Of a DNA stretch of 64,000 nucleotides, positions 33,398-64,000 are shown in pieces. A program made the translations under genes and the position numbers. The notes beneath the pieces are model-generated. The model ran no database searches. It was not told where the DNA came from and saw nothing but the letters and a program-made list of their open reading frames with translations. Every line of letters begins with the position of its first letter. The first letter of the stretch is position 1. Origin of the DNA: Sinonovacula constricta (Eukaryota; Mollusca; Bivalvia; Cardiida; Solecurtidae); NCBI GenBank assembly GCA_007844125.1, contig CM017571.1, forward strand, positions 688,077 to 752,076, written 5' to 3'.

Positions 33398-34170
33398 ATG
33401 AAGCCAAAGGATCCAGTCTGGAACCTTTTTGCCATTGTAGACCAAGACAACAAGACTAATGCTAGATGCATTAACTGCAAGACAGTGGTTAGTGCCAAAG
33501 CCTGTCGACTTCGTGCCCACAGAGAGAAATGTCCAGCCAACAAGCCCTCCCAGAAAAGACCACGGCCCGAAGATGATACTCCAGTGGAGCCATCTCCACA
33601 CACTCCTATACCTGCAACACATGAGCCTGCAGTCAAAAAGCCAAGAATGCTCCAGTCCAGCATGAATTCCTACAGTCTGTCTACAGGCCAGCCTAGGTCC
33701 AGGCAACTAGATGAACAAATAGCCAAGCTATTCTTCACATGCAATCTGCCATTTAACATTGCTGACCATCCAGTTTGGAAAGAGACCATTCAGATGCTTC
33801 GACCAAGATACCAACCACCAAATCGCAAGGACATTGGCGGCCACCTACTTGACCAAGTTCACAAGAAGATCACCACCAAAGTATCCGAAGAACTGATGGG
33901 TAAAGATGTTGTTCTGATCCAAGATGGGTGGAGAGACATACACAACACGCCGGTAATTGCCACCAGCATACAGTGTGATGGCAATGCCTACTTCATGTCT
34001 GCCATGGACACTGGTACCAACAAGAAGACAGCTGATTACTGCACTTATGTCGCCCAAGATGCCATGAAAGAAGCTGCTGAACAGTATAAGTGTAATGTGA
34101 TGGGTGTCCTAACGGACAACGAAAAGAAAATGGTGGCCATGAAGCGAAACCTAGTTGAGATTGATCCAAA
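33398..34170 (+). pseudogene. hAT transposase, 5' half with BED zinc finger
   Basis: The frame starts MKPKDPVWNLFAIVDQDN. A BED-type zinc finger is visible at residues 5-45 (C24, C27, H41, C45), binding DNA at transposon ends. A basic, Pro-rich linker follows, then the hAT catalytic core: VLIQDGW (first catalytic Asp), FMSAMDTG, and VLTDNEKKM (second Asp). The frame runs to NLVEIDPN and then into LINE2 DNA, so everything after about residue 257 here is not hAT. The missing part resumes at 39475; roughly ten codons seem lost at the junction. Confidence 0.9.
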
Positions 34171-35360
34171 TTTATTTATTTATTTGGGTTTTACGGCACA
34201 CCGACACTTAATAGGTCATACGGCGCCGAATACAAAGTTGAATGTGAATAAAGCGTAATCAGGTTAAAACCAAACTACGCATGTAAAATATAGAAAAATA
34301 TAAAAAACTATTAGGTAAAAAATAAATAATAATTGAAAACAGGTCAACACATAAAACGGTTTAAAAACTATGACGATTGGTAAATAAACAGTTTAAAAAA
34401 TTATAACTTACTAAGAATACCAATCTCGATCAAGAAGCAAACAAGTTTAGAATCCGACACTGTCCTAAATAGTTCGTACATGTTATGGACATAAAATATT
34501 TCGACCGTATGTGGTCTGTGTCGATACACTGTAATAAAATATGGTTGACTGTCAGTGGTTCCTGGCAAGGAACACATACAGGTTGAACTTCTCTTTTCAA
34601 GAGATATGAATGAGTCAATCTAGTATGTCCAATGCGACAGCGGGTAAGAGCTACGTCTTCTCGTCGACTTTCTCTGCAAGCAGAGACATTGGCACCGACG
34701 TTAGGTTTAATTACGTGTAATTTGTTACAAACAATACTGTCCCAACTTGTTTGCCACTTGGCTAAAATATGTCGGTAAATAAGTGGTTTAAAATCAGTGT
34801 GTGGGATGCAAAGATCTGTCTCAGTGAGGGCTGAGGCAGATTTTGCACCCCTGTCAGCATCTTCGTTTCCTCGGATGCCTACATGACTAGGAAGCCAACA
34901 GAAGGAGATTTCGTTAGTGTCGTATAAACTTTGAAGTTTGACAAGAACAGTGCGAACATGTGGATTTGAATAATTTAGTGAATTTATGCTTTGTAATACA
35001 GATAATGAGTCTGAAAATATACCATATTTTTCACCGGAATGTTCTGAAATTAAATCAAGGCTTAGATTTATAGCCTGGATTTCAGCGGTGAAGATAGACG
35101 AGTTGTTAGGAAGTCTTTGTTTAATGCAGTGGCTATTACTTACGGAAGCACAGCCAACATGAGTGTCCGTCTTTGAACCATCAGTATATATATGAAGGTG
35201 ATCAGAGTACTTGTCAAGGAGTTCGAGAAATTCAGATCGTAAAATCAAAGGATCTGTGTTCGACTTTTTATTTTTACAGAGTTCTAAATTCACATCAGGA
35301 GAACGGAGTTGCCATGGTGGATGTTCCATTGTGGGGTTTTCAGAAATGTTTTCGAGTTTT
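34171..35360 (-). pseudogene. LINE2 copy B: RNase H and C-terminal finger plus 3' UTR
   Basis: Minus strand. The 3' terminus at about 34171 has the AAATAAATAAA tail and the TTCGGCGCCGTATGACC box. Coding runs from about 35360 down to 34430: HIYTDGSKTD (first Asp), FTAEIQAINLSL (Glu), FSDSLSVLQS (Asp), CWLPSHVGIRGNEDADRGA (His/Asp region), so a complete RNase H. The C-terminal finger CVPCQEPLTVNHILLQC comes next. The reverse transcriptase is absent; upstream sequence is replaced by the MULE region. The endonuclease piece at 38945-39469, same strand, is probably the same insertion. Confidence 0.9.
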
Positions 35361-49613: not shown

Positions 49614-51258
49614 ATGCCTGTCAGTTGTAGTACACCAGGATGCACGCAACGGTTTTCCAAAGATTCTGGCGTACGTTTCTTTCGGTTTCCAAGCGATGCA
49701 GACAGAAAATTACGGTGGCAATTGGCCATGAAGCGGGTGCAGATCGACGATCAAAACAAACTATGGGAGCCTTCAGAAGATGACCGACTGTGCAGCTTAC
49801 ATTTCGTGACAGGTAAAATTAGACACATTAGAACATTTTCAAAATATTTGGTAACTGTTTTCATGCAAGTGACTCAGTCGTTTCTACATATTTATAAAAT
49901 TAACATAATCTATTTTAAGCTTGAAGTAGCATAAAAGGGTACAGCTGCCCTAGGCAGAACATAAAGCTTTCTGCAATATGTTGAATGTGAAATACTGTAA
50001 AAAGGCTAAAACATTGTATATCAAGTGTCCTTATTAACTGTAATAAAGATTTATTTTTGTTATTCACAGGAAAGCCATCAAAACCCAGACTATGCTCTAA
50101 GCATATTTCACTTAACACCTGGTCCAGTCCGTTGCAAAACACCAAAGAGTGTGGACCGCTTTGAGAGGTTGAAAGAAAGGAGACGTCGACTAATACTTGA
50201 ACCAAATGTAAATAGTGAAGATGAACAAGCTGCTGCGGAGGCTCTGTTAGAATTGTTGTCAACCACCAACAACAAGCCATGTAAAGAAGGTATTAATATT
50301 AAGCATTTTCAGTTGGTTACCACATTCATTGAATTAAATTGTGTAATTCCAAGTTATACATTGTGGAACATTCTCAAGTAGCTATATACAATACTATAAA
50401 TGATAGAGCCGGTAAAAATGTGCCTTGACCGGGACTTGAACATAGGGCCTTCTGTCTACAGGGCTGACACTACAACCAGAGCTACCAAGCTACACCGTTA
50501 AGTACTCAGCTATAGTAAGACCATCCCTCCTTTTTGCAGAAGTATAATAGATAAGATAAAATTAATCAGTATCAGAAATAAACTATCAGCTCTGTGTTTT
50601 ATGTTTCAGTTGTAAATTTGTTATATATATATATATATAATATATGCATTCAGGAAATAACTTTGTGAAATAATACTAAGAAAGCCTGTCTTAAATGTAC
50701 ATTTAACTTTAGTGTATGGATTCTTAATGTTGAGTTTTGGTTCCCTTTCCTTCAGCACAAACTCAGACAGAAGATCAGTTGCAGATGAAGTATGAACAAC
50801 TACAGCAAGAGCACAAGACACTGAAAGATGAATACCAAAGGCTTTTGAATGAGAACAGAGAACTGAAAGAGCACATTGGTAAAACTAAGTTCACATTTAC
50901 AAACTTAAGCAACTCACAAATCTCACAAATTTCATCATTGACAGGACTTCCATCCCTTAGCGGTGCCAATGTCTCTGCTTGCAGAGAAAGTCGACGAGAA
51001 GACGTAGCTCTTACCCGCTGTCGCATTGGACATACTAGGTTAACTCATTCATATCTTTTAAAAAGAGAAGTTCAGCCTGTATGTGTTCCTTGTCAGGAAC
51101 CACTGACAGTCAGCCATATTTTATTACAGTGTATCGACACAGACCACATACGGCTAAAGTATTTTAATGTCCATAACATGTTCGAACTATTTAGGACAGT
51201 GTCGGATTCTAAACTTGTTTGCTTCTTGAACGAGATTGGTAGTCTTAATAAGTTATAA
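49614..51258 (+). pseudogene. THAP-domain gene with a frameshift; last exon fused to LINE2
   Basis: Exon 49614-49812 encodes a THAP zinc finger: MPVSCSTPGCTQRFSKDSG start, then FFRFPSDADRKLRWQLAMKR and CSLHFVTG, giving the C-x4-C ... C-x2-H pattern. Exon 50070-50289 carries the usual HFVTGKPS / NPDYALSIF continuation, but one extra base near 50080 puts them in different frames. Exon 50756-51258 is a coiled coil (EQLQQEHKTLKDEYQRLLNE), then SLTGLPSLS, the start of a DDE_4-type transposase region, which is replaced in frame at 50961 by the LINE2 C-terminal finger to a stop at 51258. It probably came from a THAP-type DNA transposon. The frameshift argues it is not translated as one protein unless RNA processing avoids it. 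Confidence 0.8.
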
Positions 51259-51502
51259 TTTTTTAAACTGTTTATTAACCAATCGTCCTACTTTTTAAAC
51301 CGTTTTATGTGTTGACCTGTTTTCAATTATAATTTATTTTTTATACCTGATAGTTTTTATATTTTTCAATTCTATTTTCATATTTTACATGCGTAGTTTG
51401 GTTTTGACCTGATTACGCTTTATTCATTTAACTTTGTATTCGGCGCCGTATGACCTGTTAAGTGTCTCTGTGCCGTAAAACCCAAATAAATAAATAAATA
51501 AA
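50961..51502 (+). repeat. LINE2 3' end, 5'-truncated, inside the THAP gene
   Basis: Starts CGGTGCCAATGTCTCTGC in ORF2, includes the finger CVPCQEPLTVSHILLQC and an intact stop, the 3' UTR, GTATTCGGCGCCGTATGACC and the AAATAAATAAA tail. A short AATAAACAAACAAAC segment follows. No target duplication is evident. Confidence 0.92.
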
Positions 51503-51519
51503 CCCAATAAACAAACAAA

Positions 51520-52021
51520 CATATTCTTACTATAGATCATCTTTTTCTCAAATGATCCATCTGATTTACCCTCCAGAACTTACCCTAAATAAAGCAAATA
51601 ACTGACATTTAAATGCAGCATTTCTAGACATTGAGATCGCTATTTCCAATGACAACGTCTTAACTTTAGTTTTGTGAATTATACATACCTTGACGGTGAT
51701 TCACCTCGTGCTACCTCTTATGGCATTAACATATCACAACTTACAAGGTTTGCACGAGTTTGTACTAAAGTAGAAGATTTCAATGCTAGAACTACAATCC
51801 CGTCGGTTTGGAGGCAATGAGTCATCGTTAACCCCAGCTCCTTTGTGAATAAATTATCGTGTCACGCGCGTGTCAGTTCCATTATATCAGCTTCAAAATA
51901 AATAAGGTTTCGCGTCTTTTGTGTGTCATAGCGACCCCACCCCTCTATGACGTTATCGAAACGATAACGATATAAAGTCGAAAATACACGGTGGTGGAAT
52001 CATATCACCACAATCGTCAGA
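51520..52021 (+). other. non-coding spacer with a possible promoter for the PC4-TBP frame
   Basis: No gene. ATCGAAACGATAACGATATA followed by AAAGTCG near 51957-51980 contains a TATA-like box about 50 bp before the start codon at 52022, and an inverted TATCG/CGATA motif. Confidence 0.4.
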
Positions 52022-52429
52022 ATGGAGAACAGCTTGGGAAATCAACGGTACGTTAAAATAAGCGAATGGAAAGGCGAAAAGAGAGTGGATCTGAGAGAGT
52101 GGGTAAATGATAGACATACGAAAAAAGGAATCAGTTTGTCGTTAAGCCGTTGGAAAACTTTCGTCGACAGTTCGGATTTTATGGACGAAGCTTTGACCAA
52201 TGGGACCGCTTACAGTTATCATTTGGGCGGCAATGTATATTGTATCATTAAAGAAGGTAACACCTGCGTAGATATCAGACAGTTCTGGAAACCGGCGGAG
52301 GAAGTTGTGCCCACCAGAAAAGGATTGTGTTTGAGACCCGTGGAATCCATTCGTTTGAAAGAGTTATTGTCAAACATAGCAGAAACAGTTCCGGAACCAG
52401 CAGGGATTTTTGAGGTGTTCCGAGTGTAA
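52022..52429 (+). CDS. tandem PC4-like (transcriptional coactivator p15) domain protein
   Basis: A frame of 135 residues. Residues 8-50 (RYVKISEWKGEKRVDLREW, then KKGISLSLSRWK) fit the PC4 single-stranded-DNA-binding domain pattern, including the V-D-x-R-E-W strand and the K-G-I-S-L motif. Residues 66-122 repeat it (YCIIKEGNTCVDIRQFW, then TRKGLCLRPVESIRLKELL). PC4 domains bind melted DNA and assist promoter opening. The start is the first ATG after a TATA-like box. The TAA stop at 52427 is followed in the same frame by a TBP-like domain, so this may be the front of a longer protein. No intron is seen. It lies outside the inverted repeats that bound the Polinton-like genes. Confidence 0.85.
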   Translation: MENSLGNQRYVKISEWKGEKRVDLREWVNDRHTKKGISLSLSRWKTFVDSSDFMDEALTNGTAYSYHLGGNVYCIIKEGNTCVDIRQFWKPAEEVVPTRKGLCLRPVESIRLKELLSNIAETVPEPAGIFEVFRV

Positions 52430-52900
52430 TCCCAACGACTTTATGAATTGGTAAAAAAATCATTACCAACGTCGTGTGCTAGTTTAAATTGTGACATCGA
52501 TTTGAGAACTTTGGCGAATAAAACGACAAACATCATTTACCATCCAGCCAGATACTCGGGCGTTCAGTGGAAACATCCCAATATCTGTGGACATTGTATG
52601 GTGTATTTTACCGGAAAGCTTATGGTGAACGGCAAATCGAACTCTATTTCTGAAGCTAAATTGAGACTCAGACGCTACACCAGACTCATTCAACGTCTCG
52701 GATGTTCCGTAACTTTAAAAAGGATATAAGTGGTGACTGTATCGGCTTCTTTTAAAACGGGAGGACCTTTGGATTTATGTAAAGCTGTACGTTACTTCGG
52801 AGGCCATTACGAACCGGAATTATTTCCCGCCGCTATGTTCGTTAAAGACTGTACATTTTACTTGTTTTCATACTGGTTCCGTGTTAATGACCGGAGTTAG
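52430..52900 (+). pseudogene. TBP-like (TATA-binding protein fold) frame with one in-frame stop
   Basis: The frame follows PC4 without a shift; a possible own start is ATG 52448. Lobe 1: CASLNCDIDLRTLANKTTNI, YHPARYSGVQW, HCMVYFTGKLMVNGKS and LRRYTRLIQRLG, matching the order of the TBP repeat (N-x-x-Y-x-P-x-R-F, F-x-S-G-K-x-V-x-T-G, A-R-K-Y-A). After TAA at 52727, lobe 2 begins VVTVSASFKTGG and contains HYEPELFPAAMF, very close to the conserved Y-E-P-E-L-F-P-G motif of TBP. It ends at TAG 52898 before the second strand of lobe 2 is complete. Highly diverged from eukaryotic TBP as I know it. It would bind promoter DNA; whether it is viral or host-derived is open. Confidence 0.82.
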
Positions 52901-52950
52901 ACGTACGAATCAAATACGAGATGTGTGCATGCCCGTATAAATCGAACTTT

Positions 52951-53161
52951 CACTACTGTGAACCATTATCTCCTAGATATTATGTTCAGTTGAGAGTGTG
53001 AATAAAATGTTAGTTTTGTTGTGATTTTCCCCCTGTCATATTTACATCTTTTTTTAGTTATTGTATTGGTTTTTAAATTATTAGTAATCTAAAACAAAAC
53101 AAACCATACGTGTTTACTATTTATTTGATTATAGTAGACATATACACAACATACAGAACAT
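52951..53161 (+). repeat. inverted repeat, left copy (partner 61361-61585)
   Basis: Long blocks are reverse-complementary to 61361-61585, for example TTATGTTCAGTTGAGAGTGT and GTAGACATATACACAACATA. It starts 51 bp after the TBP-like stop and ends about 117 bp before the first polymerase exon. It contains an AATAAA that could end the PC4-TBP transcript. Confidence 0.92.
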
Positions 53162-54328
53162 TATTTAGTTTTTTAATCAATAACGAAATAATTCTGTAAG
53201 TAAACGAGATAAATATGTAACCTTCTGTTTTTGTTATATAAAACAACTAATAATACACATATCATTTATTGTTTCAGGACCGGAAGGACATTTTATTGTA
53301 CCCGTTGCGATACCAAATTCTTGGGTTATAACAATTTGCAAGACACCGGGACACCCACATCGTGGTTCGACCGTAAGAGTCCGGACCGTCGGGACTGCAA
53401 CAAAGCCTGAATACCTTACACGTAGATACACCTAACGACCAAGTAGGCGGCGGGGAGGATCCTTACAGGATCGACCTCTCGGGCACCCGGCAATTTAAAA
53501 AGAATGCGGCCATCGAAAAGACGTACACGGTTAAATTTAATGATCTGTGGCAAGGTAGAAGACCCCATTTATCTGCGCCAACGTCTATTCGAAAACTTGT
53601 AAGTCGGAGCCCGGGAAGGTTTATATGAAAACGATCTGCTTAGAGTCTAGCTATACGACACGACGGCCTCAAGCACGCCATAGTGATCCCTCTAATGGCT
53701 GCGGGGGACCTAAACGTGGAGCAGATATTGTCCAAGATAGAAAACGTGCTGCAGAGTCTGGAAATTCTATCAATAGGCGACTATTTCCAGGTAATGTAAT
53801 TTTCATGTATCATATAGACGTTAATTTCTGTTGTTGAATAAAAAAGGAATTAAATTATCATTTTTATGTAGCATAACCTGATCTTCGTTATACAATGATG
53901 GCCGGTGATTTATTTACATACGTGTACATACTATTCTCGCTGTATGTCATAATATTGAACCTTACTTAACATACAAAATGTAATGGAAAATATATATTTT
54001 ATATCGTCATAACAAGTACAAATACGTTTAATTATGTTCCAGTCATCATCGGGGCTCTTCACATTCCGCGAGGAGCCGGGGCAGGACGCATACGTCTGAC
54101 CAAACTCATCGGACCGGATAATTCTATCCACAAAAAAACATCGATGGTACAGATCGTTAATGACGACAAACTCTGCATGGCCAAACAATGAATAGCCTAT
54201 TTAGCGCACAACAAAAAGATGCCGCCGTTTTGGCTCATAACATGAAGGTAAGTTAGACTTTTCGCAGTTAAAATAGATCATTTTGGCATATATATGTATA
54301 TACAATCTTTTTATAAAGTAGCACAATT

Positions 54329-54346
54329 CCCCCCCCCCCCCCCCCC
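54329..54346 (+). repeat. poly-C tract in a polymerase intron
   Basis: An uninterrupted run of about 18 C within the intron 54248-54388, which still has good GT and AG borders. Confidence 0.85.
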
Positions 54347-55393
54347 TCGCCCCCGATAAACAACAAAATATTATTTTTATCCTTTCAGGGCTACGACGGC
54401 GTTTTTCTTCTGGAGTACATTGTCAATAACAGTATGAGGCCATCTAAGGTCATCCAAGATTATGTACATGTAGGTGGCAAAAGGACTCAACATACGGATC
54501 TTGGAATCCCTGAATTTTATCCCTATGAAGTTGGCAGCCCTCCCTAAAACGTTCGGTCTTACGGAACTGTGCAAAGGTTACTTCCCTCACTTTTTTAATA
54601 AGCGGGAAAATCAGCAGTACGTAAGACCCGGAACCTAAATGCTACGGGGCGGATTACATGTCCACGGAAGACAAAAAGACATTTCTTCGCTGGCACGAGG
54701 AATCGACTGAAAGCAGCGCAGTCTTCGACTTTCTCGCCGAAATGGAGGCCTACTGTCGATCCGATGTAGACATATTAAGGAGGATGTTCGACGCGACGGA
54801 GGTGGACCCATTCCAAAACGTCACCGTAGCAAGTGTCTGTATGGGAATCTACAAGACTAGGTAAGCGCAATTTTTTTTAATCGCAACCATTTTTTAACCT
54901 AAAAGTGATATTTAACTTTTGAGTCACCATTTTTTTGTTGAATATAAATAATATCCGGCACTCTTGTTGTTTTTTTGAATTCCTAGAAGCTGAGTACGAC
55001 GCGGCGCTGACTCAACCTGTAGGTGTCCCTCATTATTCCAAAGATCTCGTTCGAAAAACTCCGAGTGGCTGGCAGCTGTTGGACGGACGAACCGCCTCCT
55101 GGAAATAGCTTCCTGAGGGTCTCGAAGTGACAGATAAGAAGGCTGTTCGTTCCGACATCGCCCAGATACCCTCCGAAGGTTATGTACAGAGAGACAATTA
55201 TAGTAAGGCTTCCATTCAATGGCTGGAGTACCAAATGGAACTCGCCAAACGAAACGGAGGCACCCTTCGGATCCAGCATGTTCTCAACGGCGGCGAAGAA
55301 TACATCTTCGGGACTTGATACAAAGTGGACGGGCGAGCTGGTAGAACCGTCTTCGAATATCACGGTATGATTTTTAAAAGAAAATGTGTGATA

Positions 55394-55620
55394 CTTCTCA
55401 TGAAATAGACTAAGTAAAAATATGTGCGGCTGTCATAGTGTACGAATGATACGTTGTAATTGTGATTCGTATTTAGGTTTTCATGTTGTTTGTGGCACGA
55501 CTTTCTCATAAAATAGACTAAGTAAAAATATATATTCTTCTGTCTTAGTGTACGCATGATACGTTGTAAATGAGTTTCGTACTTATGTTTTCAGGTTGTT
55601 TGTGGCACAGCTGTCCCGAG
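55394..55620 (+). repeat. tandem duplication of an intron-exon junction in the polymerase gene
   Basis: About 113 bp are duplicated (AAATAGACTAAGTAAAAATAT in both). The upstream copy reads TTTTCATGTTGTTTGTGGCA, the downstream TTTTCAGGTTGTTTGTGGCA. Only the downstream copy keeps the AG acceptor. Confidence 0.88.
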
Positions 55621-57764
55621 TGTTACCCTAACCTGACAGTTAAAAACCCCAAGACGGGTCAGACCATGGACCAATTGTATGCCCTTACACAAATCAAACA
55701 GAAGGTGCTGACTCGGGATATGCGCTTCGAGTACGTGTGTATCTGGGAACATGATTGGGTCAGAATGATCCGCGAAGATCCCGACGTTAGAAACTTTGTT
55801 GCCGAGCTCGACATCTAGGATCGTTTGGACCAACGGGATTCCTTTTTCGGAGAAAGGACTAACGCCGCCAAACTGCGATACGTCGTAAGGGAGGATGAGA
55901 AGATAAAATACATCGATTTCACAAGGTAATCCTCTATTCATAGACTATCTGTAACCATTATTTTTTAAAAATGCAACGTTTATGACATCAAATAACACGC
56001 TTATTTGTCTTTTATTCAGCCTTTATCCTTACGTCAACAAATACGGACGCTATCCCGTCGGTCATCCCGAGCTCATAACGAACAACTTTGGTGACATCGA
56101 GAGCTACTTCGGAATCGCCAAAGTCAAGGTTTCGGCTCCTCGAGGTCTTTATCACCCTGTGTTGCCGTACCGTCCAACGGCAAACTTAAGTTCCCCCAGT
56201 GTCGCACCTGTGCCAACACCGAATCTCGAGATACGTGTACCCACGAGAATGAGCAAAGGGCGTTCGTGGGAACTTGGTGCACCCTTGAACTGCAAAAAGC
56301 CATCGAGAAGGGGTATCGTCTTCTCAAGATATACGAGGTATATCACTGGGACGCCTCTACCCAGTACGACCGAACGTCTGGAGAAGGGGGCCTGTTCACG
56401 ACCTACGTGAATTACCTTTCTAAAATTTAAACAAGAAGCGTCTGGCTGGCCCGAATGGTGTCATTCCATGGAGGAAAAAGAAAGGTACGTCCGGGACTAT
56501 CTGGAGAAGGAGGGCGTACATTTGGACCCGAACAACGTGAAAAAGAACCCCGGACTCAGGGCTCTGGCCAAACTCTGTCTGAACAGGTAAATATGACGAT
56601 TATTTTATGCAAGCACATTCGATATAACTCTTCATGTTGTCACATACGCTTAAACAACCCTGCATCTCCATATCGTCTACTGAAAATCCGTTTTTATTAC
56701 TATTTTTCAGCTTCTGTGGTAAATTCGGTCAGCGCCTAAACCAAGGGGGGTGTGAATGTATTCACGCTTCTCAGCTGGATAAATTCTACAAACTGCTGAC
56801 AGACCGTACAAAAAAGATGAAGGACTTCCATATTATCAACGAGGAGCACCTTCACCTCGAGTACGAAAACCAGTCCGGGTTCGTGCCGGAAGACACGAAG
56901 ACAAACATCTTCCTTGCCACCTTCACGACCTGCTGGGCCCGGCTCAAGTTGTACGGAGTGCTGGACCAGCTGAAAGAACGGGTCCTGTAATACGACACTG
57001 ACTCGGTCATATACGTCAGCCTTCCCGGACATTACGACCCTCCACTCGGAGATTATTTAGGTAAATGCCGTTTAAGCAAAATATTCACATAATCCCTTTC
57101 TTCGTACTATGTATCGCCATTATAATAAATATTTCTATTTATCTGTTAATTCAATCAATAATCAATTTGTTACGATCTTTTTTTTGCAGGTGAACTGACA
57201 GATGAATTGGACCAGGGCGATTATATAACAGTTTGTGAGCAGCGGTCCCAAAAACTACGCCTACACCACGGCCAAGGGCAAGCGAACCTGCAAGATCCGA
57301 GGGTTCAGCTTGAACTACACTAATGCACAATTACTAAACTTTAACAGCGTTCGGGATACGGTCAGTCACGTGAATCCCTCGCGTCCTTCGACCAACAAGA
57401 AAATGAAGTTTGAAGACGATAATCAACAGGCCTCCAAGGTGATCATCGTCACAAACCCTTCTAAAATATCCAGGGACAAGTTTAGCAACTTGCTGTTTAA
57501 TAAGAAGGAAAGTAAACAGTATCGCGTTGTCTACGACAAAAGGGTCATTATGGACAACAACGACACCCTTGCCTACGGATACTAAATTATAAGAGACGAG
57601 TAAGAACCTGGCAACAACAACGGCAGCCAAAGAGTAAAAAGGCGTCTACTGGAGTGATCACTACTACCGACAGCCTACCGATCTTATGACCCGAACGATA
57701 CATCGTAGAACAACCAGAAAACAATAATAAGAGAAATTGATGCTGAGCGCCTTACAAAAAAAAA

Positions 57765-57984
57765 ATGAATACCTGTCCCGAATGTCGCAGAATCTTTTCC
57801 AGAAGGGAAATGATGGACATGAAAAACTTGGCCAGCGATAATGACGGTTATAGATACGTGCTGGTAGCCATCGACGTGTTTTCGAGATTCGCCCTATGCG
57901 CCCCGACAAAAAGCAAAGCGGCCAAAGACGTACTTGTCTTGTTAGAAACGTTACTATCGGGACCCAGAGTACCGAAAGTAATAT
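57765..57984 (+). pseudogene. Polinton-type integrase, N-terminal part of the catalytic core
   Basis: The MDMKNLASDNDGYRYVLVAI stretch followed by DVFSRFALC matches the start of the retroviral-type integrase core (rve), with the first catalytic Asp in MDMK. KSKAAKDVLVLLETLL follows. The frame then runs into a LINE2 tail at about 57981, so the second Asp and the Glu are missing. It would insert the element DNA into the genome. It lies 180 bp after the polymerase. Confidence 0.82.
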
Positions 57985-58024
57985 GTATTTATGTATTTTG
58001 GGTTTTAACGGCACACCGACACTA
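57981..58024 (-). repeat. very short LINE2 3' tail
   Basis: TTGGGTTTTAACGGCACACC plus an A/T tail: a 5'-truncated LINE2 end between integrase and penton-like genes. It probably marks a deletion or insertion that removed the rest of the integrase. Confidence 0.75.
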
Positions 58025-58059
58025 TGGATTAGTTTGCTGTGTAGTGCCATCGGATACGC

Positions 58060-58486
58060 ATTAACGTCTCCATCACTTAGCCATGAACGATCACTGTTTC
58101 TGAACAGCGGTTTGTCAAAAGATCGATATCCGTCTAACAGACCTGAAGATTTTACCGTAGAGTTCCCCCACCCCTACGATCTACGAGGTCAGTGGGTGTG
58201 CGGCCTAAAGGAAATAGGAATATCGCTGAGTGAAGAGATTGTATACGTGTGTTCGGACGCGTGCGGGGAATCATACGCCAAAAATACCATGTTGCCCGAA
58301 TTGAGGACGTTGCAGAAAGACAAAAGCGTACTGACTTACTTTCACTTTGATAACCCCGTGTACGTCAAAATAACGCCGACGACTTTAAATAGAATCCGAA
58401 TCTTTATAAGAGGAGTTCAGCTTAGAGACCTTCATGATACGGATCATATCGTTCGGTGTACACTTCATTTGAAACGATGGATGTAG
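58060..58486 (+). CDS. penton-like minor capsid protein of the Polinton-like element
   Basis: The open frame contains FLNSGLSKDRYPSNRPEDFT, VEFPHPYDLRGQWVCGLKEI and GISLSEEIVYVCSD, the N-terminal pattern of Polinton minor capsid (penton-like) proteins, in which a P-x-N-x-x-x-D-F strand is followed by L-x-G-x-W-x-V-G-L-x-E-I. A second strand set (VYVKITPTTLNRIRIFIRG) is present. The length, about 140 residues, fits a single jelly-roll. It would form capsid vertices. The true start is uncertain because a LINE2 tail precedes it; no internal stop is seen. Confidence 0.68.
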
Positions 58487-58776: not shown

Positions 58777-60317
58777 ATGGGTACCAACAAACACGATAAC
58801 GAGCTCGCCTTGTTCGAACAACCGGAAATGGATTCTAAACTTGTTTGCTTCTTGAACGAGATTGATGTTCTAAGTAAGTTATAATTTTTAAACTGTTTAT
58901 TTACCAATCGTCATTCTTTCTAAACCGTTTTATGTGTTGACCTGTTTTCAATTATTATTTATTTTTTTACCTGATAGTTTTTATATTTTTCTATATTTTA
59001 CATGCGTAGTTTGGTTTTAACCTGTTTACGGTTTATTCACATTTAACTTTGTATTCGGCGCCGTATGACCTATTAAGTGTCGGTGTGCCGTAAAACCCAA
59101 ATAAATAAAAATAAATGAATAAGCTACACAAAAAGAGAAAGGATCACCGTGAGACCCATCAATCAATTCTCGGATGGATCCGCCATCGTATTCAACATAC
59201 CCGGTACCTCCATGACCTACATCGATCTCAAAAATATACTACTCAGAGTAAAAGTAAAGATTGTCAAAGCAGACGGGTCTAATCTCGAGGTCGCGGACTC
59301 GGTGGGATTGACGAATAATGTTCTACACAGTATTTTTTCTCAAGTGGACGTCAACATTCAGCAGCAACACACCAGCGAAGTAGGCGCCAACTATGCCTAC
59401 AAAGCGTACCTGGACACGTTACTAGAATGCAAAAGTCAGCACGATTTAGACTGCCAGATGTTTATCAAAGACGATAGCGGCATTGATATGGATGACACGG
59501 ATCCGGTCGGTAGAAATAACGGATTGTATACGAGAGTAATCCGTACGATGCAAAGTAAAGAATTAGACCTCATCGGTCGTCTTTACGTAGACGTTTTTCA
59601 ACAGGACAGATTATTAGTCAACGGCGTTCCCATCAACATCAAGTTATGTCAGAATTGGGACAGATTCAGATTACTGGCGAAGGAAGGCTTGGAGCCGTAT
59701 ACCGTTCGTATCACGGAAGCTGCTTCGAACGTGGCATCGGTTAAAGTCAAACTGACGTCATCGTTGGACAGAATGACGTCATTAAGAAATCCAGCGCCCT
59801 GTATCCTTACAGTCGTTCCGTGATCAAGACGTACGCGGTACCCCAGGGACATTTTTCGTTCATCGTCGATGACGTATTTCAAGGCGAAGTACCCAAGCAA
59901 CTAGTAGTGGGTATAGTAGGGTCGACGGCCGTTCATGGATCTTACGTCAAGAATCCATTCAACTTTCAACACTTTCACTGTAACTACGCAGGTTTCTTCG
60001 TCGACGGCCAATCAACGCCATCCGAGCTTCTACAGCCTAATGATAAGAGCAATTTATTTATCGAAGCGTACCAACGGCTGTATTGGTGTGCATCAGAGAG
60101 AGCCATCTGCGTGACCAGAGACGACTTCAAAGACGGTTACTGTTTGTACGTGTTTAGACCACAAGGGGATACCAAAGACAGACCAGACGAGAGAGCTCAT
60201 ACCCGTTTGGAACTGAAATTTTCCAAAGCTTTACCCACCACTTGCACGGTGATTGTGTACGCCAAATGTCCGGCCCTGATGACCATCGACGGCACCAGGC
60301 GCGTAACCTTGGAATAA
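58777..60317 (+). pseudogene. Polinton-like major capsid protein, cut by LINE2 and frameshifted
   Basis: The start is at 58777 (MGTNKHDNELALFEQPEM). Coding is interrupted by a LINE2 fragment (58831-59116) and resumes at about 59119 with RPINQFSDGSAIVFNIPGTS and MTYIDLKNILLRVKVKI. The order of motifs (SD.xxIxFxxPG..xYIDL, later NPFNFQHFHCNYAGFFVDGQ and VYAKCPALMTID) is that of the double jelly-roll capsid proteins widely annotated in invertebrates as F54H12.2-like. A frameshift near 59795 divides the rest into two frames (to 59823 and from 59820). The stop is TAA at 60315. It would form the icosahedral shell. Confidence 0.88.
58831..59116 (+). repeat. LINE2 3' end inserted in the capsid gene
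   Basis: Starts GATTCTAAACTTGTTTGC, includes the 3' UTR, GTATTCGGCGCCGTATGACC and an AAATAAATAAAAATAAAT tail. AAATG occurs on both sides and may be a short target duplication. Confidence 0.92.
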
Positions 60318-60398: not shown

Positions 60399-60730
60399 AA
60401 CTATCCTTGACAATCGGACGACGTCCCAGAATGAACGTGGTCAATACCGACGAGAGAGGACTACCCGGTACTCATTGGACAGCGTTTTACTTTCAACAGA
60501 AGGGTCCGGCGGAATTTTTTGACTCCTGCGGAAACGTGCCTGAACATAATCATCGACGATTCAAGAAGGTATTAATTTGGAACGGTCCTCGTTACGTGTA
60601 CAATAATGAACGTATATATCCATACGGCATGAGCATCTGCGGACAATATTGTGTCTTTTACCTGAAACTACGATGTCGCGGTTGGACGATGAAGCGAATC
60701 GCACGTGTGTTGCGGAAAATAAACATTTAA
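60399..60730 (+). CDS. adenain-like cysteine protease of the Polinton-like element (N-terminus uncertain)
   Basis: The open frame (first ATG 60407) contains NVVNTDERGLPGTHWTAFYF with the catalytic His in GTHW, AEFFDSCGNVP with the acidic residue, and YPYGMSICGQYCVFYLKLRC with the Gln and catalytic Cys of GQYC. This is the adenovirus-protease (Ulp1-fold) triad order. It ends TAA at 60728. Such enzymes cleave capsid precursors during assembly. About 90 bp between the capsid stop and this frame probably encode the start in a damaged frame. The catalytic residues are all readable, so the core could be intact. Confidence 0.85.
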
Positions 60731-61264: not shown

Positions 61265-61360
61265 GTTATGGTTTATTGTTACCGAACTTGTTCGTATGTT
61301 TGCCAATATATCATCGTTTTATATATCTGTCTTGTATGTTTTGATTAAAATTTTTAATAA

Positions 61361-61585
61361 ATGTTCTGTATGTTGTGTATATGTCTACTATAATCAAATA
61401 AATAGTAAACACGTATGCTTTGTTTTGTTTTAGATTACTAATAATTTAAAAAAACCTATACAATAACTAAAAATAATGTAAATATGACACGGGAAAAAAC
61501 ACAACAAAACATGTTATAGGTAACAACATTTTATTCACACTCTCAACTGAACATAATATCTATGAGATAATGGTTCACAGTAATG
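61361..61585 (-). repeat. inverted repeat, right copy (partner 52951-53161)
   Basis: Reverse complement of the left copy (TATGTTGTGTATATGTCTAC; ACACTCTCAACTGAACATAA). It ends 12 bp before a DIRS-like direct repeat, so its outer part may have been lost. Confidence 0.92.
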
Positions 61586-61596
61586 TAATGTAATTT

Positions 61597-61695
61597 TCGC
61601 CGCTAATGGCCGTAGTAGTTTTACACGAGGTGTGATGTGCTTGGCTGACCAGTGGTCATGTAGCGCTAGTTACTCGCAGGTGAAACACAGTTTTT
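61597..61695 (+). repeat. direct repeat 1 flanking the DIRS-like fragment
   Basis: GCCGCTAATGGCCGTAGTAG, then GTGCTTGGCTGACCAGTGGT and ACTCGCAGGTGAAACACAGT; recurs at 63133-63226 in the same orientation. Confidence 0.88.
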
Positions 61696-62132
61696 CTGGC
61701 TAGCCACAGATATGGAAGAAAACGCCAATACCACGTGCTCTGCAACCGACATAAATAATAATTTGAAGGAAATTCTGTTTGAAGTGAAAAAAACAGCAAA
61801 TGGAAATTTACGAAATTAAAAACACTAGGCAGTGTTCTGTTAAAACTGAGAGTATTAGTAAGGACATAAAATGGAGATTTGAAGGAAATAAACAACAGTT
61901 TGTGTTCAATTCTGAAATTGAGGAGAGTATTAAACAGTTTATGTGGGCGTTGCAAAATCAAAAATACGACCATTCTCAGGAAAATTGCAGTGACGCTTTG
62001 CAAAAAATTCACGTAAGGAACAAACATATTCGTATAACTTTTGACGAAAGAAGATTTACGTGTGACTATTTTATTTATAAACAAGGTCAAAAAGACATTA
62101 TTGTTCGGAAAAGATTAAAAGAACATATTTAG
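61696..62132 (+). pseudogene. DIRS-like ORF, region upstream of the reverse transcriptase
   Basis: An open frame (ATG 61800) with KWRFEGNKQQFVFNSEIEES and ITFDERRFTCDYF, a Lys/Gln-rich protein in the position of the DIRS gag-like ORF. It ends at TAG 62130 and the reading continues in frame into reverse transcriptase motifs. Confidence 0.65.
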
Positions 62133-62672
62133 TTTTGGAAAGATATTGGAGCAAATCAATTTATTCTTGACTCTATTGAGTATGGTTATAAAATTCCATT
62201 TTACTCCTTGCCTGGAAGTGCAATGCTCAGAAACAATAAGTCTGCACGAGATCATTCATCGTTTGTTTTAGAGGTTATTACTGATTTACTAGACAGGGGA
62301 TTAATAGATCAATTAGACTTACCTCCTAAAGTTGTTAATCCTTTGTCTGTATCAATTCAAAGTAGTGGTAAGAAACGTCTTATTTTAGACTTAAGATGGG
62401 TTAATAAACATGTGTGGAAACAATCGGTCAAATATGAAGATTTGAGATTGGCACTAACTTATGTTAGGCAAGGAGGGTTTATGATAAAGTTTGACATTCA
62501 TTCCGCATATCATTTTGTTGACATTTTTCCCCAGCACGCGACATATCTTGGTTTTTCGTTTCCTGATAAAAATGGAATTATTTGTTATTACAAGTTCAGA
62601 GTCCTTGCTTTTGGTTTAGGGGTCGCCCCTTATTTTTACACTAAGCTTATGCAGCTTTTAATTGCAAAATAG
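62133..62672 (+). pseudogene. DIRS-type reverse transcriptase, N-terminal two thirds
   Basis: WKDIGANQFILDSIEYGYKI, then KKRLILDLRWVNKHVWK, LRLALTYVRQGGFMIKFDIH and SAYHFVDIFPQHATYLGFSF, YYKFRVLAFGLGVAPYFYTK: the order and wording of DIRS-family reverse transcriptases (tyrosine-recombinase retroelements), with the motif A Asp in KFDIHSAYH. The frame stops at 62670. The catalytic Y-x-D-D motif expected just afterwards is deleted, because the next frame at 62690 already belongs to the later connection region. Confidence 0.88.
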
Positions 62673-62689
62673 AGTGAAGGAAACAAACT

Positions 62690-62875
62690 GTGCAACTAGC
62701 ATTAGAGGTGAAATGTGATTTGTTGAAATCTGGTCTCATCCCAAAAGTAGATAAGTGTATCTGGGATCCAGTACAAGAAATGGAATGGTTGGGAGCGTGC
62801 TTAAATACACATCAGTTTTCTATTTCAATTCCTGAAAGAAGAATAAACAAGGTACTTGAGTCGATAGGTTTGTAG
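62690..62875 (+). pseudogene. DIRS-type connection / RNase H start
   Basis: QLALEVKCDLLKSGLIPKVD and WDPVQEMEWLGACLNT match the segment that follows the reverse transcriptase palm in DIRS elements. It stops at 62873. The rest of RNase H, the methyltransferase-like domain and the recombinase are absent. Confidence 0.8.
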
Positions 62876-63132
62876 ATATATAGTAATATGTCAAGTTACT
62901 ATTTATGTTTTACACATTATATATTTTTTGTTTGTTTGTTTGTTCTGATATCTCTTGAGAGCCCGTTCTTTTAATTCAGCCGGTATGTGGGTGCTAGCGG
63001 CTCTACCAAAAAAAAAAACAGTTTTGTTTTTGTTATTAATGATGAGATAATGCAAAGATGGAAGGGAAATGTAATTTTCGGCGTTTAAATGTAATGAATT
63101 AGTCGAAAATTAATTTCCTTTTAGTATGTGCA

Positions 63133-63226
63133 ATTGCCGCTAGAGGGCGTATTAGATGACCAGTGGTGTGCTTGGCTGACCAGTGGTCATTCAGCACTAG
63201 TTACTCGCAGGTGAAACACAGTTTTT
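63133..63226 (+). repeat. direct repeat 2 flanking the DIRS-like fragment
   Basis: Partner of 61597-61695. GACCAGTGGT is present twice here. Confidence 0.88.
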
Positions 63227-63239
63227 TAATTTAACTATT

Positions 63240-64000
63240 GAGAAAAAATATGCAAAGTCTTTAACTCATTATCTGTATTGCAAAGCATAAATTCACTGAA
63301 TTATTCAAATCCACATGTTCGCACTGTTCTTGTCAAACTTCAAAGTTTATACGACACTAACGAAATCTCCTTCTGTTGGCTTCCTAGTCATGTAGGCATC
63401 CGAGGAAACGAAGATGCTGACAGGGGTGCAAAATCTGCCTCAGCCCTCACTGAGACAGATCTTTGCATTCCACACACTGATTTTAAACCGCTTATTTACC
63501 GACATATTTTAACCAAGTGGCAAACAAGTTGGGACAGTATTGTTTGTAACAAATTACACGTAATTAAACCTAACGTCGGTGCCAATGTCTCTGCTTGCAG
63601 AGAAAGTCGACGAGAAGACGTAGCTCTTACCCGCTGTCGCATTGGACATACTAGATTGACTCATTCATATCTCTTGAAAAGAGAAGTTCAGCCTGTATGA
63701 CTTCCTTGCCAGGAACCACTGACAGTCAACCATATTTTATTACAGTGTATCGACACAGACCACATACGGTCGAAATATTTTAATGTCCCTAACATGTACG
63801 AACTATTTAGGACAGTGTCGGATTCTAAACTTGTTTGCTTCTTGAACGAGATTGGTATTCTTAGTAAGTTATAATTTTTTAAACTGTTTATTTACCAATC
63901 GTCATACTTTTTAAACCGTTTTATGTGTTGACCTGTTTTCAATTATTATTTTTTTTTTTACCTGATAGTTTTTATATTTTTCTATATTGTACATGCGTAG
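63240..64000 (+). pseudogene. LINE2 copy D: RNase H end, C-terminal finger and 3' UTR, runs off the window
   Basis: From about 63240 the sequence matches copy B on the opposite strand: LQSLYDTNEISFCWLPSHVG, IRGNEDADRGAKSA and DTDHIRSKYF. A TGA at 63698 replaces the Cys codon of the C-terminal finger (V-C-V-P-C in other copies), so the frame is broken there, then continues to the family stop near 63870. The 3' UTR is cut by the window end. 5'-truncated inside RNase H, next to the DIRS repeat. Confidence 0.9.

Follow-up and report, generated by a model that had tools for sequence, protein, structure and literature searches.

What does a frame of 293 codons that resembles PC4 and then TBP encode at this locus of Sinonovacula constricta, and what might such genes be doing among those of a Polinton? 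The frame lies at 52022-52900 of the window (the whole stretch of 64,000 nucleotides analysed here, C17:688077-752076), and the genome that we searched for further copies comprises 1.22 Gb in 177 contigs. The initial annotation had proposed that two PC4-like domains and a TBP-like domain are fused in a single reading frame. Translation bears out the 293-codon frame with its two internal TAA codons, at 52427 and 52727, and the domain order is also as described: piece 52022-52426 (135 residues) contains two PC4 stretches (Pfam, 9.9e-22), piece 52430-52726 matches TBP (Pfam, 1.4e-9), and piece 52730-52897, searched alone, gives a weak TBP match (Pfam, 0.095). A search of solved structures leads from the TBP piece to TBPs (2e-10) and from the PC4 piece to human PC4 (5e-6). 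With 46 relatives of the PC4 piece in the protein collection (identity 39-74%) and nine database relatives of the TBP part, searched with an X at its one stop (identity 65-76%), both domain matches are, by sequence similarity, real and far beyond chance.

The fusion, by contrast, is not borne out. Among the 23 loci of the same genome that were inspected (8 + 15), both genes are open in nine (L003, L004, L008, L017, L019, L020, L026, L027, and L029, the first two being duplicates of each other), and at all nine a stop separates two ORFs, each having its own start and its own stop (158-177 codons for PC4 and 169-174 codons for TBP). The spacing between the two genes is 1 or 4 bases in one group of open loci (lineage A) as against 351-380 bases in the other (lineage B). 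Copies of this kind, free of the two TAA codons and beside PolB or capsid-type genes, are what the initial annotation had advised looking for. In the window itself, the PC4 gene closes in another frame, with the C-terminal tail of its family and a stop at 52454, and the TAA at 52427 is thus a product of decay; the TBP gene is likewise out of frame with its own middle at both ends, in the first residues (from 52462) and in the last (up to 52961). Since the open loci have two separate ORFs, the 293-codon frame arose by chance as the copy decayed, and comparison of the copies shows the window stretch to be the degraded remains of two neighbouring genes, one for a double PC4 and one for a stand-alone TBP. 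Coupled translation is thinkable across the 1 or 4 bases of lineage A, but the separate starts and stops at the nine open loci, the 351-380 bases of lineage B, and six of the nine database TBPs, which are complete at 169 residues and begin with their own Met, make a fused or read-through product highly improbable, and we reject the fusion protein.

The decayed pair and its surroundings in the window are as follows, with C6 denoting a complete element on that contig.

51785-51790, no strand: left target-site duplication, GCTAGA; its right partner, GCTTGA, is outside the window (5/6 match)
51791-53180, plus strand: left terminal inverted repeat, 1.39 kb, starting ACTACA and containing the whole PC4-TBP pair
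52022-52454, plus strand: double PC4 gene, decayed; two Pfam PC4 stretches (9.9e-22), frame changes before the end, tail at 52422-52454
52456-52961 (start approximate), plus strand: stand-alone TBP gene, decayed; Pfam TBP match (1.4e-9) to the first repeat, an internal stop and frame changes
53970-57585, plus strand: pieces of a PolB gene with GT-AG introns; DNA_pol_B_2 0.0013 and 0.019, 59-86% to the C6 PolB pieces
57747-58061, plus strand: integrase piece; rve match of 1.3e-5, short of the curated cut-off, and 73% to its C6 counterpart
58094-58483, plus strand: penton-like (minor capsid) piece, provisionally named by position; 56-70% to the C6 copy
59149-60317, plus strand: major-capsid-like (MCP-like) gene in two overlapping frames, provisionally named by position; 70% to the C6 copy
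60401-60730, plus strand: adenain-type protease; Peptidase_C5 0.039 (weak), 62% to the C6 protease
61341-61588, minus strand: inner portion of the right-hand terminal inverted repeat, covering the end of its TBP gene and the DNA downstream; 87.6% to 52948-53180
61589-64000, no strand: later insertions splitting the right repeat (a reverse-transcriptase element, RVT_1 4.2e-5, then a LINE piece); the right pair lies beyond

The pair had been described as abutting an inverted repeat that bounds the neighbouring genes. It sits instead within the repeat at 51791-53180, and the inverted repeat once taken as a boundary beside the gene is, for the part in the window, the inner portion of a longer repeat split by insertions. 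The left arm (51788-52954) is 91.7% identical, in inverted orientation, to the window-equivalent positions 65746-64540, just beyond the window on its right side. The inner stretch 52948-53180 is paired with 61588-61341. ACTACA starts both arms, at 51791 and at about 65743, where they are flanked by GCTAGA and GCTTGA, respectively. The right arm is broken by about 2.95 kb, which includes a reverse-transcriptase piece and a LINE piece, and it carries a second PC4-TBP pair (L005), partly broken and on the other strand, just past the right end of the window. Because the pair is inside the 1.39-kb terminal repeat, the window element has it at both ends, pointing inward.

The complete element on C6 spans 16,340 bp, its ends being ACTACA at 34598760 and TGTAGT at 34615099. 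It has an exact 6-bp duplication (TCTGCC) on both flanks and inverted repeats of about 0.2 kb (86%), and it holds a single PC4-TBP pair whose start is about 0.1 kb inside one of the repeats. One of its PolB exons matches DNA_pol_B_2 (1.7e-17) and its integrase rve (3.5e-14) and Chromo (2.5e-8). The matches of its ATPase (AAA_22 1.7e-4, Pox_A32 0.007) and its protease (Peptidase_C5 0.017, weak) are below the curated cut-offs, and both genes are conserved ORFs in many element copies. Conserved ORFs also stand in the expected places for penton and MCP, which we provisionally take them to be from position; neither the capsid-type ORFs of C6 nor the penton-like and MCP-like pieces of the window had a Pfam match, and a PDB search with the C6 MCP returned nothing credible. 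On the sequence of PolB, integrase, repeats, and target duplication, the window and C6 elements are Polintons (Mavericks). In both the window (54190-57260) and C6 (L015, 1400-4400), PolB has GT-AG introns whose positions correspond, as judged by eye from the genomic sequence; this implies nuclear transcription and host splicing.

Of the other copies, those on C11, C6 (29.5 Mb), and C8 match the C6 element right to the terminal ACTACA, and those on C16 (1.49 Mb) and C13 match it to within 28 bases of ACTACA; the flanks beyond are unmatched, except for one stretch in common with C13 (243 bases, 86%). The C11 copy is 99.8% identical to the C6 element over 7.1 kb. These copies are separate, partly recent insertions (the check for a 6-bp duplication covered the C6 element and the window element). 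The copies at 0.74 and 9.73 Mb of C17 and at 27.9 and 29.05 Mb of C19 (the last three being L034, L035, and L036) are better read as duplications because their flanks are shared, and they probably spread by duplication of host DNA and not by insertion.

The association with Polinton-type polymerase and capsid genes, also part of the original description, extends well past the window. The genome has 37 TBP matches, and in the 9.3 kb around the 20 best of them PC4 is directly upstream of TBP on the same strand in 20/20, at least one further Polinton gene is present in 18/20, and three or more are present in 13/20. Two of these loci have no further Polinton gene (L044 and L045), three have one weak or short match (L038, L047, and L048), and two have two (L037 and L051). 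The 20 loci are not all independent, since L033 and L037 are the two ends of one element and duplications are counted twice. As a control, five pieces of the window from 1-46250 gave no Polinton gene matches.

These observations bear on whether the locus is simply a decayed host TBP or PC4 gene that came to lie beside a Polinton by chance. In its favour are a family that clearly belongs with eukaryotic TBPs (human TBP is 28% identical) and the broken state of the window copy. Against it stand the Polinton genes at 18 of the 20 loci, the separate insertions in which the pair recurs and the match continues to the terminal ACTACA or stops no more than 28 bases short of it, and relatives that are TBPs of about 170 residues in 170 database proteins. 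Ordinary host TBP pseudogenes unlinked to viral genes, a case that the initial annotation had named as refuting its proposal, are not what was found, as the copies adjoin viral-type genes. As far as sequence can do so, linkage and shared element ends rule out a host pseudogene, and we hold that explanation to be improbable in the extreme.

The pair is retained within two gene orders. In lineage A it converges on protease-MCP-penton-integrase-ATPase, and in lineage B it is co-directional with integrase-penton-MCP-protease-ATPase. Among open copies, which alone were entered and whose pairs share sequences, dN/dS (NG86) for TBP is 0.033-0.232, from 12 usable pairs of 28 (15 others were saturated and one was identical). 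For PC4 it is 0.077-0.273, from 10 usable pairs of 15, most of them near saturation (dS >2 in seven). Such low values are consistent with purifying selection while the elements were active. Database matches of PC4 and TBP fall on contigs of the same size (e.g. 1136, 2110, 1409, and 3466), which is suggestive at most. IMG/VR, scanned with PC4, TBP, and MCP queries, yielded no relative, and a scan of it with yeast TBP returned no giant-virus TBP; tblastn against phages yielded none. Since the IMG/VR and phage searches found no relatives, there is no sign in them of a free-virus form.

A profile built from the nine TBP relatives retrieved 170 proteins, and 118 of the 120 listed have a TBP domain only, the other two being without a precomputed domain. 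The named members are from Pinctada imbricata, Mytilus edulis, and Mytilus galloprovincialis (considered as proteins), and some database members were already automatically named TATA-box-binding protein. Open TBP copies match PF00352 in two stretches each (5.8e-24, 4.9e-30, and 3.5e-22). An AlphaFold2 model of the family, made from 83 of the 120 listed members after 37 short or odd rows were left out, has a pLDDT of 96.9 and the TBP saddle (an earlier model from a 9-row alignment, with a pLDDT of 37, was not used). Structure prediction thus agrees with the original identification of TBP, while the identity of PC4 rests on its Pfam matches. The best PDB matches of the model are TBPs, cellular ones reaching a TM of 0.91 and human TBP (1cdw) a TM of 0.89 at 28% identity. 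The TBP fold also occurs in DNA viruses, in the TBP-like proteins of giant viruses and asfarviruses; the best BFVD viral TBP by E-value has a TM of 0.76, and among the 50 BFVD matches listed TM goes no higher than 0.78 and identity no higher than 21%. Genomes of giant viruses and asfarviruses are far larger than Polintons. That the family model is nearer to cellular TBPs than to the BFVD-listed giant-virus TBPs bears on the origin of viral TBPs. A TRF2/TBPL1 origin was considered and set aside: eight members scored fewer bits against human TBPL1 than against cellular TBPs, which is not decisive.

Residue counts in the 83 members, given in the numbering of yeast TBP, separate what is kept from what has changed. 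The phenylalanines that kink DNA are present at F99 in 66/83 (with Tyr in a further 12), F116 in 78/83, F190 in 79/83, and F207 in 54/83 (His in 25), and column counts of this kind suggest that most members retain all or three of the four positions. The glutamates that face TFIIB are kept at E186 in 68/83 (Asp in 13 more) and at E188 in 77/83, and N69 is retained in 77/83. Among the base-reading residues, N159 is Thr in 81/83, V161 is Ser in 81/83, T124 is Asn in 74/83, and V122 is Asn in 34/83 and Met in 20/83. By their sequence, then, the Polinton TBPs largely retain the kinking and TFIIB-facing sets and have an altered base-reading set. The Polinton TBP is like cellular TBP in having two repeats in a saddle and unlike it in its identity of about 30% and these changed base-reading residues. 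DNA binding by the protein is uncertain because F207 is His in 25/83 and N159 is lost in 81/83.

Open copies of the PC4 partner match PF02229 in two stretches (1.9e-24, 3.1e-23, and 1.7e-12), and an alignment of the window piece with 25 of its 46 relatives was made. PC4 domains bind ssDNA, also in replication and repair, and the tryptophan of the domain is a DNA-stacking residue. The tryptophan motif of domain 2 is kept in 46/46 relatives. A C-terminal tail of the form C-x-H-x-C-x2-C followed by N/Y-P is found by pattern in 37/46; several of the remaining nine are cut short before the tail, and P0017 and P0046 carry a variant. The protein resembles cellular PC4/Sub1 in its tryptophan-bearing PC4 domain and differs from it in having two domains per chain and the Cys-His-Cys-x2-Cys tail. 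A genome search with PC4 gave 94 match rows, some of them pieces of one gene, so the family is a large, mobile one.

In light of these features, what might the pair do? Two gene families occur in a fixed PC4-then-TBP order, on the same strand and at the end of a Polinton, with low dN/dS and a TBP saddle in the model. The best reading, as the initial annotation had also supposed, is a predicted role in transcription initiation. In particular, we propose, with a probability of about 0.6, that the pair supplies Polinton-coded factors for promoter recognition and promoter melting that retarget host RNA polymerase II. TBP would bind a TATA-like element in Polinton promoters and bend it by means of its phenylalanines, and its glutamate stirrup would recruit host TFIIB. 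The double PC4, perhaps a pseudo-dimer within one chain, would bind the melted DNA strands, and loading of host RNA polymerase II on element promoters would follow. The polar residues that replace others at base-contact positions suggest that the promoter code has changed, so that element genes might be read when little host TFIID is available. Host factors could start the pair first, at an early stage, from a TATA-like box upstream of PC4.

Promoter words lend themselves to description here, being too few for any claim. The window has a TATA-like box near 51968 (51960-51980), upstream of PC4; the copies on C19 and C2 have a TATA-type word in that place and those on C6 and C11 have TATTAA, such words standing 50-85 bases upstream of the PC4 start in the window, L035, L040, and L050. 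TATAAG is found upstream of MCP. Upstream of integrase, penton, and protease, none of the six promoter words tested was present and no shared late-promoter sequence was seen, so the promoter-code part of the proposal is weakened.

One other option is that the pair serves mainly DNA replication or packaging, with PC4 coating the ssDNA of PolB replication and TBP marking or bending the terminal repeats. The binding of ssDNA by PC4 domains and the location of the pair beside or inside terminal repeats agree with such a role, and no other ssDNA-binding gene was recognised among the annotated element genes (none was specifically sought). The retained TFIIB-facing glutamates (E186 and E188), however, fit transcription better, and the genes stay paired in two lineages with different gene orders; we therefore regard a mainly replicative role as unlikely. 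Less probable again is that TBP acts as a decoy which ties up host TFIIB or occupies host promoters, shutting host transcription down. A retained TFIIB stirrup together with changed base-reading residues is what a decoy might have, but the constant pairing with PC4 (20/20) points to a positive role and, from the column counts, most members retain all or three kinking Phe positions.

Returning to the retargeting of host RNA polymerase II, a wider proposal is possible, which we offer tentatively: that animal Polintons evolved a minimal viral pre-initiation complex, made of a bare TBP, its promoter code rewritten, and a one-chain double PC4, the two coded next to each other at the terminal repeats (inside them in one element), and that this complex redirects host RNA polymerase II as an independent counterpart, in an element of about 16 kb, of the herpesvirus vTBP. 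KSHV ORF24 retains the phenylalanines, has asparagines at four hydrophobic contacts, and lacks both E184 and E188 (PMC12529657). As a viral TBP whose DNA face is polar, ORF24 offers a precedent (PMC12529657). The Polinton TBP is like it in its largely retained Phe positions, its polar replacements of DNA contacts, and, as predicted, its use of host Pol II, and unlike it in retaining E188 in 77/83, the residue on which the glutamate comparison rests (PMC12529657). At about 170 residues it is also no more than the TBP core, lacking the additional C-terminal DNA-binding domain of the ORF24/UL87 type, and its partner is PC4, whereas ORF24 is described as working with five other viral factors (PMC12529657).

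The element as a whole compares closely with vertebrate Mavericks. As far as the accessible text of the source goes, the two share PolB, integrase, inverted repeats, and a 6-bp duplication, with the ATPase, protease, and capsid-type genes as probable further counterparts, and they differ in the PC4-TBP pair, which is absent from the eight core genes listed there (PMC8097293). The termini are ACTACA..TGTAGT compared with the (AG)3 or (AGT)2 ends of vertebrate Mavericks, and PolB has introns compared with none in intact vertebrate Mavericks, according to the same portion of that source (PMC8097293). TATA and PC4 were not found for Mavericks in the available text of PMC8097293, nor TATA and TBP in that of PMC13037468. 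In the portions available of PMC11071296, PMC11071308, PMC10120064, and PMC12220804, neither TBP nor PC4 was found in a Polinton or adintovirus. TBP genes are described, in the accessible part of one study, in algal elements of putative mirusvirus origin, which are without DNA polymerase and double jelly-roll genes (PMC10675990). Full-text literature searches, with most subscription journals outside their scope, gave no report of TBP or PC4 in Polintons or adintoviruses. To our knowledge, virus-coded TBPs are known only from large DNA viruses, and the named BFVD matches are of that kind. TBP and PC4 in 16-kb Polintons, with low dN/dS and in several insertions, suggest that small integrating animal viruses seize promoter recognition itself. 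As these are small proteins with clear DNA-facing and TFIIB-facing residues, the timing and direction of Polinton genes become open to direct test.

Some minor observations concern the surrounding DNA. The reverse-transcriptase element in the right terminal repeat (61589-63226) has flanking 78-base direct repeats and is perhaps DIRS-like. A LINE-type 3' end is present in four copies that are 89-95% alike (50961-51508, 58830-59115, 63577-64000, and 34170-34697), the second of which is inside the Polinton, between penton and MCP. At 33398-34258, an ORF of 286 residues resembles, on visual inspection, the beginning of a hAT-type transposase with a BED finger. Elsewhere in the genome, some matches cover just the final 29 residues of PC4 (C2:24000966, C19:12730526, C2:47774980, and C12:20890563). 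They lie 13-14 kb from a lineage-B PC4 and in inverted orientation, as if the opposite end of those elements coded for a small protein that has this Cys/His tail too.
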